From assembly GCA_026710055.1 (NCBI GenBank), contig JAPORV010000135.1:1-44694 (forward strand): 44,694 bases of DNA, in the 5' to 3' direction. Under the pieces are notes generated by a model. That model ran no database searches. It was not told the DNA's origin and worked only from the letters and a program-made list of their open reading frames with translations. Numbering within the stretch: the stretch's first letter is position 1; each line of letters opens with the position of its first letter. A program made the position numbers and the translations under genes. Source of the stretch: Aestuariivita sp. GTDB lineage: Bacteria > Pseudomonadota > Alphaproteobacteria > Rhodobacterales > Rhodobacteraceae. Of the stretch, positions 10,935 through 34,507 are shown piece by piece.

Positions 10935-11266
10935 CCATTTTCGGTTCAAGAAATGCAACTTCATATTTGCTTTCACGTTAAAGATTGAGGATTATAAGAA
11001 GACCTTTAAGACGCTCAAATGTGACTATCAGATGTCGACTTTATTAACAGTGCCGAGAAAACTATAAAGATAGCAAGGGTCAAACAAAAATCTTAGTTGC
11101 TTTTGGTCAAAAAACAACGCAACCTGTTTGCAACAGAGTCTCAAATTACTTAACGTCAATGACAACCCTGAAATATACGCCACTTATTATCCTTCAAATG
11201 GCCTTCCAAGGCAATACCGTCAACTTCCACAAAAAATAATTCAGAAACTCATCTCATCAAACCGAC

Positions 11267-11350
11267 ATACAGTGTCATGCGTTTTGCCCGAAGCATAAAA
11301 TTATTTTCGACTTTTATCTCACACATAAGATCAAACTTATGTGAGAAAAT
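11267..11350 (+). repeat. Dispersed repeat family 2, copy A
   Basis: ATACAGTGTCA...GTTTTGCCCGAAGCATAAAATTATTTTCGACTTTT...CTTATGTGAGAAAAT; diverged direct copy at 34607-34691. Confidence 0.75.
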
Positions 11351-11810
11351 TAATAATATGTGTTTTTTTTCAATAACCTGCTTTCGAAATCCGAACTGAA
11401 CAAAGATGTCGTAAAGGAACCAGGCCAACTTTCCGAAGTAAAACATGGAGCGATTTAGAAAACCAGTCAAATACTGGCTTCAACTGCATGTAATTTAATT
11501 TAACCGCTGTTGAAAAAAAGAGAACTAGAACATGTACTCGACTTCTACATAACTTTAGGCTCTTGAAGAAGCGAGCCAAAGTTAAAGAATTGATTAATAC
11601 GTTCGAACCATACTTGCATCCACCCTCTAGGCTGCGCAAAAGTCACTCCTCAAGTGCACAGAGGTGCGAAACCGAAAATCCGTATTGATAACGTACTCCA
11701 TCTTTTCTAAAATAATTTCGAAGACACTTGGTTGATCCTGACATTGCTGATCACAAGGGAATGGAACCAAGGGCAATTTATTCATTGATTGGAAGAGAAT
11801 TTCCAACAAT

Positions 11811-11836
11811 TTCTTTCATTGCTAACAATGAAAGAA
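11811..11836. other. Intergenic perfect hairpin
   Basis: TTCTTTCATTG (11811-11821) / CAATGAAAGAA (11826-11836), 4-nt loop. Confidence 0.6.
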
Positions 11837-12101
11837 GCAAATTAGTTTTTTCTGAAGCATTTAACCCATAAATGACAGTAGAATGAACAAGCCTGATTTG
11901 TTTAGCTTTTTATTAGTCACAAGAATGGAAATATGAGTGTCGTCCCTGTCATTAAACGTATCGGCAACAAGGCTAAGGCAAATGTTTTTTTTTGCACATA
12001 AAATTTGAATTTTCAAACTCAATAAGCACGAGAAAAACCCTTATTAAAATATTAACAATAAATGACAAAAACACGTTAGAAATAGGTAAATAAGATTTTT
12101 T

Positions 12102-12195
12102 AGCAATTCCCGCTAACTCGGGTGAATAGTAACGAGTGTCATTTGGACTCTAAGTCTCTGAGAAAACTAGAAAAAATGTTCTAGCGGAAATTACT
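12102..12195 (+). mobile_element. MITE-like element, short (94 bp) copy
   Basis: TIRs AGCAATTCCCGCTA (12102-12115) and TAGCGGAAATTACT (12182-12195, 12/14 match to the reverse complement); first 70 bp match the copy at 30861-31053 at 67/70 positions. Confidence 0.75.
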
Positions 12196-12288
12196 GAAGA
12201 TTTTTACAGAAAGAACTCTGTTTTCAACATATCAATCAAAATTGATTTGCAATCCTTGGCAAAAGAACCGTTCAGTTCGGATACTTAA

Positions 12289-12318
12289 GTTTTAAACAGA
12301 TTTTGATCCGTTTAAAAC
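12289..12318 (-). terminator. Inverted repeat downstream of ubiG, possible terminator
   Basis: GTTTTAAAC (12289-12297) / GTTTAAAAC (12310-12318), 9-bp arms, 12-nt loop, 30 bp beyond the ubiG stop. Confidence 0.4.
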
Positions 12319-12347
12319 CTAGATTGATAAAGATTTCTTGCGATAAA

Positions 12348-29478: not shown

Positions 29479-30726
29479 ATGAGGAACAGCATGCGTAAAC
29501 CACAAAAAGTTGTTCTTGCTTATTCTGGAGGCCTAGACACATCAATCATTCTGAAATGGTTGCAAACAGAATATGGTTGCGAAGTTATCACTTTTACAGC
29601 AGACTTAGGACAAGGCGAAGAATTACAAGAAGCAAAAAACAAAGCTTTGTTATTAGGGATAAAACCAGAAAATATCTTCATTGAGGACCTTCGGGAGGAA
29701 TTTGTCCGCGATTTTGTATTTCCGATGTTTCGCGCAAACACTGTATATGAGGGTAAATACCTTCTCGGAACAGCAATCGCACGGCCTTTAATTTCAAAGC
29801 ATTTAGTTAGAATTGCATCCCAGAAGGGTGCTGACTCCATCGCTCACGGCGCGACAGGAAAGGGAAATGATCAAATTCGCTTTGAGCTCTCAGCTTATGC
29901 TTTAAACCCAAACATTAATATTATTGCGCCTTGGCGCGAATGGGTCTTGAACTCCCGTGAACGACTTATTGAATTCGCAGAAGAAAACCAAATTCCAATT
30001 GCCAAAGATAAGCGCGGTGAAGCTCCTTTTTCTGTTGATGCAAATCTCTTACATACATCATCTGAAGGTAAGGCTCTTGAAGATCCTGCTCAAGAAGCAC
30101 CAGCACATATTTACCAACGAACAGTTGATCCAGAGAACGCGCCAAACCAGCCAGAATATATTGAAATTGGTTTTTTGAAGGGTGATGCTGTCAGCGTTAA
30201 TGATGAGACAATGTCACCTGCTGCACTTTTAGCGCATCTAAATGCCATTGGCGGACGACACGGCTGTGGTCGACTTGACTTAGTTGAAGGCCGTTTTGTT
30301 GGAATGAAATCGCGTGGAATTTATGAAACACCTGGTGGGACACTCTTGTTAGAAGCACACCGTGGAATAGAGTCGATCACTCTAGACCGTAGTGCTTCTC
30401 ATCTCAAAGATGAACTCATGCCACGATATTCTGAATTGATTTACAACGGTCTTTGGTATTCTCCTGAACGCGAAATGATACAAGCTGCAATTGATGCAAG
30501 TCAAACTTACGTATCAGGCACTGTACGTCTAAAGCTATATAAAAGCTCAGCAAAATGTATTGGTAGATGGAGTGAGAATAGCTTGTATTCTGAATCACAT
30601 GTAACTTTTGAAGATGATGCTGGTGCTTATGATCAAACAGATGCATCAGGTTTTATTCAATTAAATGCCCTACGCTTAAAACTTTTAGCAAATCGGAATT
30701 TAAAAGCAAAAGGCACACTACTTTAA
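29479..30726 (+). CDS. argG: Argininosuccinate synthase (start may be ATG at 29491)
   Basis: 415 aa; [34 protein letters not shown]. Confidence 0.98.
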
Positions 30727-30860
30727 CCATTTTTTGTCTCTCCTATCACACCGGTTTCATTTGAACACAAAACCACAAAACCCGTGCTTTCCGCACATTT
30801 TACATAATTCCACGAAAACCATAACTACTGCTTTCCTATAAATGTTCTTATGGGAAACTC

Positions 30861-31053
30861 AGCAATTCCCGCTAGAATATTTTTTCTTTTATTTTCATAT
30901 AGTTACGCAATTTAAAAAAATTATTTTTCGTAAAATTTCTGCACCAAAATTGAAACTTTAATATTATTTTCGGAATATTTTTTTCTAGTTTTCTCAAAGA
31001 CTTAGAGTTCGAATGACACTCGTTACTATTCACCCGAGTTAGCGGGAATTGCT
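30861..31053 (-). mobile_element. MITE-like element, long (193 bp) copy
   Basis: Perfect 14-bp TIRs AGCAATTCCCGCTA (30861-30874) and TAGCGGGAATTGCT (31040-31053); no coding capacity; inverted relative copy at 12102-12195. Confidence 0.8.
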
Positions 31054-31560
31054 ATAGAAAAGCCGTTGAAAATGAGCAGGCCAATGAAGCAATGGCAGAA
31101 ACAGCCAAGACACTGCATGGGTATTTAGCTACCATAACTACAGTGGTTGATACTAAATAGACCTGATGAAACTGACCAAGGCTTAACTGGCGATTTACTG
31201 CAAGTCTATATGGCAGCTGAAAAAGCCAGTGACGGAATGGGATCAGAGGAAAAGTCCAAGTTATGGTAATGAAGGTTAAATCGAGCACAACTGAAACAGG
31301 CACTCCCCCAACCAAAGGGACAGCAGTTAATGAGGAAAATATTGGAGCCATAGCCGAAAATGCAAAATTTATTACAGGATCTGGATTTGCTACTGGAGCA
31401 ACAGAAGTAAAAGATCACGCAGTTGGTTCTGAAGTTACAGGATCTTATGCCGGTCAGGCCGGTACGTATAGGGTTCGTCCCAACAAAGGTACAAAGTGCG
31501 ACATAGGATTTGGGAATTTATCCAATCACAACAAATGTTTGACCGGATCTCGGACCTCCT
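31054..31560 (+). pseudogene. Decayed ORF region of unknown origin
   Basis: Successive open stretches in shifting frames: RKAVENEQANEAMAETAKTLHGYLATITTVVDTK*, DETDQGLTGDLLQVYMAAEKASDGMGSEEKSKLW*, MKVKSSTTETGTPPTKGTAVNEENIGAIAENAKFITGSGFATGATEV... Confidence 0.4.
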
Positions 31561-31575
31561 AGAATCGAAGCCCTA

Positions 31576-32101
31576 TCAGACGGTTGATTTCAGGGGCAGG
31601 ATTCTGATGCTGTTCTGCAGCTTTTCATCCGGGAAATCGTATTCGCCCAGCAGGTTGACATGGGCACCCATGATATGGATGCGGATGCGTTGATGGTGCG
31701 GCGGCATCCGGCATCGTCTTCATCTGCCGCGTGAGATAGATATAGTTCCAGCAGATGATGCCGTTTCGGATCAAGAGGTTGCAGCCTTCGGCGATGGCCC
31801 AGGCATCTGGTTCGGTCTGGCTGAAGGCACAGGGGGTGACGACCACAACGGCACAGGAGAACCTGTTTGCCAGTTCGACTGTGTTGAGTTTTCCTTCGAT
31901 GGCTTGGCGTAATTCGAGACGGTCGGCATACCGCAGAATGAAACAGCGTTTTAATCACCTGCCCGAAAGCCTTAATGATTTAGTACAGCGCGTGTTGACG
32001 GAAATAGAAATTGAGCCGCCGAAAAATTGCGGACGCGGTATTTCCCTTGAGCTTGATGGTGACGACCATGCGCAGAAACTCATCCAAGTTGGGATAGGCT
32101 A
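31576..32101 (-). pseudogene. Tn3-family transposase (TnpA) C-terminal remnant, frameshifted
   Basis: Minus-strand pieces: YPNLDEFLRMVVTIKLKGNTASAIFRRLNFYFRQHALY*IIKAFGQVIKTL; FILRYADRLELRQAIEGKLNTVELANRF...AIAEGCNLLIRNGIICWNYIYLTRQM; MGAHVNLLGEYDFPDEKLQNSIRILPLKSTV*; in-frame stop and at least two frameshifts. Confidence 0.88.
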
Positions 32102-32608
32102 GAGTTGGTAGAGGGAGAGCACTTCAAGATTAAGGGGGTGCTGCATAACCTTGAAGGTACCCGAGACCTATAGGAGAATGATAAGTATCACTTCCGGAAA
32201 TGGGTGTTAGAACAGGTTGACGGATTCGTAACGACCCCAAAAGGGAGTGATGATGGTATTGACGGCCGCCTGTATTTTGACTTTCCGAACAAAAAAGAAC
32301 TACAGAGCATGATTCTGGAAGTGAAAAGCGGTGCGAATGTGGGCATTGGCGTCGTTCGAGACCTGCGCGGCGTGCTTGCATGAAAAGGAGCGCAAATGGC
32401 TGGGTTGATCATTATGGGAGACCTTGGGGAACGGAAGATGAGCAATTTAAGGGTGGAAATATCGCGGGCCGGAGACTTGGACGTACTTGGCGTAAAATAC
32501 GCGCGGATGCAGATGCTCACCGTTCAGGAGATATTTGACGGCAAGCGGTTCCTCACGCCCACGGTGGCGCAGGGCAAGAGGCTGGCCCAGCCCAGCCGGC
32601 CGTTGTAA
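32102..32608 (+). pseudogene. Remnant of site-specific DNA methyltransferase C-terminal restriction-endonuclease-like (PD-(D/E)xK) domain
   Basis: ELVEGEHFKIKGVLHNLEGTRDL*ENDKYHFRKWVLEQVDGFVTTPKGSDDGIDGRLYFDFPNKKELQSMILEVKSGANVGIGVVRDLRGVLA*KGAQMAGLIIMGDLGERKM...DLDVLGVKYARMQMLTVQEIFDGKRFLTPTVAQGKRLAQPSRPL*; internal stops. Confidence 0.7.
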
Positions 32609-32716
32609 GGAGTTCTATGAAAACCGAGAAAGGAAAAGACTATGAACGCACTTAGATGTCAGTATCCTGAATGGCAGCAACGGGTGCTTCTCAATCAGCT
32701 CCCTCACCCCTCTTAA

Positions 32717-32740
32717 TGCCCGCAACTGTCTGTGCGGGCA
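32717..32740. other. Perfect GC-rich hairpin
   Basis: TGCCCGCA (32717-32724) / TGCGGGCA (32733-32740), 8-nt loop. Confidence 0.5.
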
Positions 32741-32969
32741 GTTAGCTAGGGGAACCGTTACGATTGATGGATCGGCCGTGAGTTGGGACTATTCCTCAAT
32801 TCGGGATAACGGGGGCTGTCAGCCAACGGCACGTGCCGAGCACACGCGGGGCGGTCTCGGGATCGCCCTTTTTCCGCAAACAGGAAAAGCCCAAGACTAC
32901 TCATTCCGATGTTTTTAATGTTGGATCACCCTCAGCAATAACCATATTTTGTCATAACCCCGCGTTAAT

Positions 32970-33256
32970 AAGTATGTCGTATTTATTATTATGATTTTGT
33001 AACAGGAAAGACAGGTAAAGAAAAACTCCTGGAGCTAAAAGCGACACAATCCTGTAAGAACATTCCCTCTGATAATTGGACACTTATTGAACCCGACGAA
33101 CGCCATGACTGGATTGCAAAACAGGAAGTGGGTTTTGACGCTCTTGTTCCAATGGGATCGAAAGAGGTCAAAACGGAGAAAACTGACGATACGATTTTCA
33201 AGTTATTCAGTTGTAGAATCGCTACCTCGCGTGATTCATATAGAAATACTCGCTGA
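32970..33256 (+). pseudogene. Remnant of type ISP restriction-modification enzyme / DEAD-box helicase-methylase
   Basis: YYYDFVTGKTGKEKLLELKATQSCKNIPSDNWTLIEPDERHDWIAKQEVGFDALVPMGSKEVKTEKTDDTIFKLFSCRIATSRDSYRNTR*; resembles the linker and start of the methylase domain in type ISP enzymes. Confidence 0.7.
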
Positions 33257-33628
33257 TTGCTGGGAGGAAGGAAACGGTGAATATCGAAGTCCCATTGTTT
33301 CGAGAGGGAGAGGAAATGGTGTAAGCGCCCTATGGAACAATGCAGTCGCTAAAGTGATGAATTGGGATCCGAACTGGTTGACTGAATTGCGATTGCTCTT
33401 GCACGACGAACCACATGTAAAAGCACTTGGAAGAGAAGACTTTATAGAAGAAGACTATGAGAAACGAAGAAACTTAAAAGGTTGAGCTTGATCTGTGAAA
33501 GATTCTGACAATCTTAACAGATCTTCGGTAATTAAAGCCTTTTTTCCCTTATCCAACTTCCTCACCAATTGGCTGAAATATCGGGCAATATCATTCAAAG
33601 CCTGCGTGAATGCATTTGCTAAATTTGT

Positions 33629-34507
33629 TCACTTGCTTAGCATTAAATCTTGCACATCCTTTAGGTCTGGAATAACATCTGCTGTACCATGTCTTGTTAC
33701 CATTATTGATGCAGCAAGATTAGCTTGAGAAATCGCTTGCTGCATTACAAGCCCTTGATGAAGACCTGCCAAAAGAAACCCCGCAAACGTGTCACCAGCG
33801 CCAGTCGTATCAATCGCTCTTGCTTGCCGTGTTGGAAAATCTTGAATACTTCGCGAACTTAACTGAAACCATCGTGAACCATTTTTTCCACGTGTAACGA
33901 TAACGTCATTAACCGATAAATCAAGCAATGAACATGATTTTGATTTTTCCAGTTGCAATGCTTCTACCTCATTTAAGATCAATAAATCAATAAATGGCAA
34001 TACTGAAGATAGTGCTGTATCGTCAAATGGTGCAGCCACATAACAAACGGTTATCCCTAGACGATGGCCCAAAATAGCAGCTTCAATTTGTGCGTTTGTT
34101 TCATTTTGAACAACAAGAAAATCTCCTGGCTGTGCCGATGAAAGTGCTGCTTTAATACCATCTGTTGGAATTTTACGATTTGCACCCGGAAAAACAATAA
34201 TTTGGTTTTCTCCAAATTGGTCAACCACAATTATCGCATGCCCTGTCATTTCATCAACAACAGAAATCTGGCTCGTATCGACACCATATTCCATCAATCG
34301 CTCTACCGCCCAGTGACCATCTGAACCCACAGAGCCTATATGAATGACATGAGCTGCTGCGCGAACGGCCGCGACGGAAATATTTGTGCCTTTACCGCCA
34401 AGAAATTCCGTCTTCTGTCGCGCCACAACCGTTTCTCCAGATTTTGGAAATTCAGCTAATTCATAGACAAAATCAAGATTTATTGATCCTAGATTCCAAA
34501 TTGTCAT
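33629..34507 (-). CDS. PfkB-family carbohydrate kinase (ribokinase-like)
   Basis: 292 aa; GGKGTNISVAAVRAAAHV, DTTGAGDTFAGFLLAGL. Confidence 0.92.
   Translation of the reverse strand: MTIWNLGSINLDFVYELAEFPKSGETVVARQKTEFLGGKGTNISVAAVRAAAHVIHIGSVGSDGHWAVERLMEYGVDTSQISVVDEMTGHAIIVVDQFGENQIIVFPGANRKIPTDGIKAALSSAQPGDFLVVQNETNAQIEAAILGHRLGITVCYVAAPFDDTALSSVLPFIDLLILNEVEALQLEKSKSCSLLDLSVNDVIVTRGKNGSRWFQLSSRSIQDFPTRQARAIDTTGAGDTFAGFLLAGLHQGLVMQQAISQANLAASIMVTRHGTADVIPDLKDVQDLMLSK

Follow-up and report, generated by a model that had tools for sequence, protein, structure and literature searches.

A lineage-specific expansion of miniature inverted-repeat elements in Aestuariivita sp. whose terminal repeats match an ISNCY-like insertion sequence group

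The element at 30.8 kb and a shortened copy in the same window

The DNA analysed here (the window) is a 44,694-nt stretch of contig JAPORV010000135.1 from Aestuariivita sp., a marine alphaproteobacterium of the family Rhodobacteraceae, and coordinates without a contig or locus label refer to it. Downstream of the argininosuccinate synthase gene argG (29479..30726, + strand; PF00764, PF20979) lies a full-length MITE copy of 195 bp (30860..31054, + strand, taken as the reference orientation), with the left arm GAATATTTTTTC and the right arm ...CACCCGAGTTAGCG. It is bounded by a left terminal inverted repeat (TIR) of 15 bp, CAGCAATTCCCGCTA (30860..30874, + strand), and a right TIR, TAGCGGGAATTGCTA (31040..31054, - strand), for which the family consensus end is CTG. 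The initial annotation had placed perfect 14-bp TIRs here, and AGCAATTCCCGCTA at 30861-30874 is indeed the exact reverse complement of 31040-31053; perfect 14-mer inverted-repeat pairings no more than 250 bp apart occur twice in the window and in none of 20 dinucleotide shuffles. The length of 193 bp given at the same time has to be extended to 195 bp, as alignment of copies, which end at CAG...CTG, places the ends at 30860 and 31054 (CAG...CTR). The description of the interior as AT-rich and non-coding holds, with a GC content of 0.287 against 0.411 for the window, no usable frame in six-frame translation and no ORF of at least 80 aa inside the 195 bp. Two internal direct repeats are present, GAATATTTTTTCT at 30875..30887 and GAATATTTTTTTCT at 30973..30986 (both + strand), and the copy is 97% identical to the family consensus.

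As had also been remarked, no clear target-site duplication (TSD) accompanies this copy: the left and right 9-bp flanks at the expected positions (TGGGAAACT, 30851..30859, and TAGAAAAGC, 31055..31063) agree at 5/9 positions. Since the window copy is 99% identical to another copy that has a perfect TSD (L002), it is a fair guess that a rearrangement beside the window copy removed its duplication. In a sister genome (G002), argG and the gene for a pfkB-family carbohydrate kinase (33629..34507, - strand, in the window) are adjacent, with about 330 bp and no MITE between them, whereas 2.9 kb of MITE and debris separate them in the window. The sister species being only about 70% identical in argG, and the intergenic DNA consequently not aligning with it, this orthologous empty site was compared by gene order only. 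The approximately 2.5 kb between the MITE and pfkB (31064-33628) hold no recognisable gene and are absent from G002.

The second copy reported at 12 kb is the same MITE but not a full-length one. It is a 96-bp internal-deletion derivative (12101..12196, - strand), inverted relative to the 30.8-kb copy and flanked by a perfect 9-bp TSD, AAGATTTTT (left copy 12092..12100, right copy 12197..12205). One TIR is exact (12102-12115) and the other has two mismatches. Another 96-bp form is found on contig C44 (L072:580-675) with its own TSD, AAGGGTATT, and both forms lack the DNA between the internal direct repeats GAAYATTTTTTCT, which makes slippage or recombination between these repeats a plausible origin of the short form. 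The presence of a separate TSD at each 96-bp form points either to transposition of the short form or to independent deletions at the two sites. The surroundings of the 12-kb copy (10935-12340), a gene-poor stretch of 1.4 kb between a NUDIX gene and a methyltransferase gene, look like decayed DNA. Elsewhere in the genome, a divergent MITE of 196 bp (contig C329, L064:375-570), 68% identical to the consensus, has TIRs that closely resemble those of the family, is flanked by a perfect 9-bp TSD (ATGTATTTT) and likely represents a second subfamily.

Copy number and signatures of insertion

The genome from which the window comes (G000) measures 3.84 Mb in 508 contigs, with 99.4% completeness and 1.9% contamination. 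A search of it with the element gave at least 42 matches, 40 of them near full length at 91-100% identity and including the window copy (scoring covered 40 of the 166 first-look candidates). With no more than 3 mismatches allowed, the conserved 27-base right end is present 70 times in this genome (0 control hits) and 1 and 2 times in two other genomes of the genus, which belong to the sister species. The family therefore comprises at least 70 copies in one Rhodobacteraceae species. The initial annotation had asked for a genome-wide search and would have been undermined by a mere pair of copies without insertion polymorphism; copies far exceed two on either count, and the presence of insertions varies between relatives.

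The family is hardly found outside the genus. Of 196 genomes searched, only 8 gave any match, the matches outside the genus being short. Among named public genomes, the exact right-end pattern was found on four contigs, three of them from two MAGs called Aestuariivita sp. (CAR1_bin_6 and CAR2_bin_10) and the fourth, at a contig end, from a MAG with the same sample prefix called Litoreibacter sp. (CAR1_bin_18). This last contig, JAPORH010000065.1 (L147), carries the MITE end at its very end and may, through a binning error, in fact belong to the Aestuariivita-like MAG of that sample. No similar sequences were found in plasmids and phages, nor was the right-end pattern found in viral contigs.

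We compared the flanks at 42 loci where both ends are present, a set that contains a few weak or composite pairs. A 9-bp TSD is perfect at 27/42 and has at most one mismatch at 35/42, while control flanks mispaired between loci gave 0 perfect matches and 0.2% with at most one mismatch. At the same 42 loci, no match with at most one mismatch was obtained for TSD lengths of 7, 8, 10 or 11. In the 35 TSDs with at most one mismatch, positions 1, 4, 5, 6 and 9 are AT-rich.

Empty sites in relatives, which the initial annotation had suggested looking for, were found by joining the flanks of a copy, dropping one TSD, and comparing the result with uninterrupted relatives, both at paralogous sites and on a sister-species contig. 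The empty site of L026 is 88% identical over 143 bp to its paralogue L020 and 71% identical to the sister-species contig L222; the joined flanks of L021 match the uninterrupted L089, L142 and L020. The empty sites of L021 and L025 are several copies of another dispersed repeat, at L006 one MITE is inserted within another MITE, and the flanks of L018 occur in the same order in genome G001 at a distance that leaves no room for a MITE. That other dispersed repeat family of G000 (around TACCATGCATAAAA...), into which MITEs have inserted, is represented in the L021 flanks and at L089, L142/L132, L020, L037 and L025. The MITE avoids open frames and lies mostly between genes: with the MITE removed, 4% of 26 sites fall in open frames of at least 200 codons, against 42% of random nearby sites. 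At L002, an open frame has lost its last few codons to the insertion, which stands in their place.

Short, bounded by TIRs, with no gene inside, flanked by a TSD of constant 9-bp length and dispersed as a family with empty sites, the element is what the initial annotation took it for, a MITE; the TSDs, the empty sites, the many copies and an insertion sequence (IS) with the same TIRs, described below, all support this reading. The TIR stem would also suit a regulatory or structural element, RNA or DNA, that selection keeps at many loci (an attenuator, terminator or small RNA). The preference for intergenic sites would agree with such a role, as would the folding of the single strand, which is better than that of shuffles (z -4.5), but most of the fold energy is contributed by the TIR stem, in which, across 34 copies, 9.4% of cells are broken (17/34 at the fourth pair) and compensatory changes are absent. 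The paired fraction across these copies lies below that of shuffles, covariation in the consensus fold amounts to almost nothing (about -0.5 kcal/mol), and there is no Rfam match, so that the conserved structured RNA named by the initial annotation as a refutation was rejected. Together with the insertion revealed by 9-bp TSDs and empty sites, and with the near absence of the element from the sister species, this renders the RNA reading highly improbable. Nor do we find it credible that the apparent copies are an artefact of metagenome assembly or binning. The 508 contigs of the assembly, and the fact that the named relatives are MAGs, would invite that explanation, but the copies have different surroundings and, in most cases, a TSD of their own, and they differ in sequence, in a genome with the high completeness and low contamination given above.

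The resident insertion sequence and its transposase group

The TIR CAGYVATTCCCGCTA has 107 matches per strand in G000 with up to one mismatch (1 for a reversed-pattern control), and it also bounds a resident IS of about 1.6 kb that occurs in multiple copies. The left end of this IS (L073), present in 20 strict copies, is followed by the beginning of a transposase, MKHSFRKHL..., whose C-terminus lies in the right end (L079). A complete but decayed copy of about 1.6 kb lies at C41:3531-5117, with flanks GATAAACTT/AATAAACTC that match at 7/9 positions. Two copies covering the catalytic region have a frameshift and a stop in common, and most C-terminal copies have a common stop near the end. Such lesions in common suggest that defective IS copies were amplified in trans, although few copies are covered in an assembly that breaks in the IS. 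Lesion-sharing copies are on contigs C54 and C94 (L262, L267), C482, C85, C472, C333 and C189. No intact autonomous copy was seen in the 508-contig assembly, which breaks at IS copies, and one may be present but unassembled.

An IS relative with an open transposase frame is found in another Rhodobacteraceae genus (G016, L194:145-1816), with perfect 16-bp TIRs, CAGCAATTCCCGCTAA, and a 448-aa transposase, P0001. The search for an autonomous partner with the same TIRs, proposed with the initial annotation, has thus yielded a full-length IS in G000 and an open frame in G016, although the copies assembled in G000 are all decayed. P0001 falls below the cut-offs of both NCBIfam IS4 (22.6 bits against 152) and Pfam DDE_Tnp_1 (18 against 23), and the curated IS4 model thus gives no support for membership of the IS4 family. 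No PDB relatives were found by sequence. A tblastn search of plasmids with a 57-aa transposase fragment returned nothing, while the full protein did give matches in plasmids.

One of these is an IS on the Saccharobesus litoralis plasmid NZ_CP026605.1 (L214:597-2258), with a transposase at 32% identity, the TIR CAGCAATTATTGG and an exact 9-bp TSD, TAAATAAAG; it differs from the MITE in being full-length, in its gammaproteobacterial host and in a TIR that diverges after position 8. Another of these plasmid-borne relatives is WP_013335080.1 of Gloeothece verrucosa PCC 7822, annotated as ISNCY family and about 27% identical to P0001 over most of its length. Its element (L215) has the TIR CAGCAATTCTCATTTT, with only the outer TIR bases in common with the MITE, and unlike the gene-less MITE it is a full-length IS with a 443-aa transposase. 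The TIR start CAGCAATT is common to the MITE and the Saccharobesus, Gloeothece and G016 elements. A 9-bp TSD is exact at L214 and matches at 7/9 at C41, and was not seen at L194 or at the Gloeothece copy L215. In five aligned transposases of the group, D132, D221 and E343 (IENE) are invariant and, judging from this alignment, likely form the DDE triad. The initial annotation could not match the TIR to a known IS family; by the TIR in common it can now be matched to what appears to be an ISNCY-like IS group, the family name being the annotation of one Gloeothece protein.

Origin of the family and its place among known elements

With both sequences anchored at the TIR, about 90 bp of the MITE left arm can be aligned to the left end of an IS from G111, a genome of the same family but another genus (score 18, against a maximum of 8 in 1000 dinucleotide shuffles). 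This IS end is followed by the start of a transposase belonging to the ISNCY-like group, and an IS of that group is therefore the apparent source of the left arm. The right arm gave no significant alignment with any IS end tested, nor did the MITE beyond the TIR with the resident IS in the anchored test, and a simple internal deletion of the resident IS was accordingly rejected as the origin of the MITE. Only the TIR-anchored test discriminated, position-free local alignment being uninformative because of AT richness.

We consider it very probable that the MITE is a non-autonomous DNA transposon moved in trans by an ISNCY-like transposase and expanded in this lineage. The founding copy probably arose by deletion from an IS of that group. 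The DDE transposase of this little-studied group would recognise the TIR CAGYVATTCCCGCTA and move the 195-bp element in trans, although the resident IS copies seen look transposase-dead. Each insertion duplicates a 9-bp target, and the copies have settled mostly between genes. The element has multiplied to at least 70 copies in this genome, an expansion that most likely postdates the divergence from the sister species and may be continuing.

It is conceivable that an unrelated transposase family moved the MITE and that its TIR resembles that of the resident IS by chance, since the TIR is all that the two have in common, no intact copy of the resident IS is assembled, and the genome contains many other DDE_Tnp_1 transposase remnants. 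Yet the common 15-bp TIR, the 9-bp TSD of a group member and the left-arm homology to the G111 IS point to one group, and the DDE_Tnp_1 loci fetched had no fitting TIR pair around them, for which reason these transposases were rejected as partners. Movement by an unrelated family thus seems quite unlikely, and mobilisation by the ISNCY-like group remains the reading we favour. More tentatively, two non-autonomous families, the MITE and the full-length but transposase-dead IS with its common lesions, could have burst together under a single ISNCY-like master, since lost or left out of the assembly, a possibility that we regard as somewhat doubtful.

Comparable elements are known from other bacteria. 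MITECca01 of Cardinium cOegib is derived from IS982 and present in 169 copies (PMC9769881). Like the MITE described here, it has undergone a lineage-specific burst, is mostly intergenic or located in mobile elements, and has TIRs in common with a multi-copy IS, but it belongs to another IS family, has another TIR and resides in a maternally inherited endosymbiont (PMC9769881). QMITE2 of Coxiella and Chunjie of Geobacter resemble our element: they measure about 190-235 bp, have TIRs and direct repeats, occur in tens of copies and come in size variants (PMC10969869); the likeness is one of description only, the hosts are others, and QMITE2 has longer TIRs (23-29 bp) and direct repeats of 7-9 bp (PMC10969869). 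In the literature searched we found no MITE tied to an ISNCY-like transposase; of two papers naming both, the one on Microcystis assigns its MITE to an ISL3-type transposase. The family is well supported and, as far as our searches reach, new, but of an ordinary kind.

Should the joint burst prove true, the genome would capture a community of transposons at a moment when its master element has already died out. For an IS group so far without classification, the family provides a TIR consensus, a target duplication of 9 bp and a set of natural substrates, and it offers a clean example of lineage-specific MITE expansion in Rhodobacteraceae, with 70 copies against 1-2 in the sister species.
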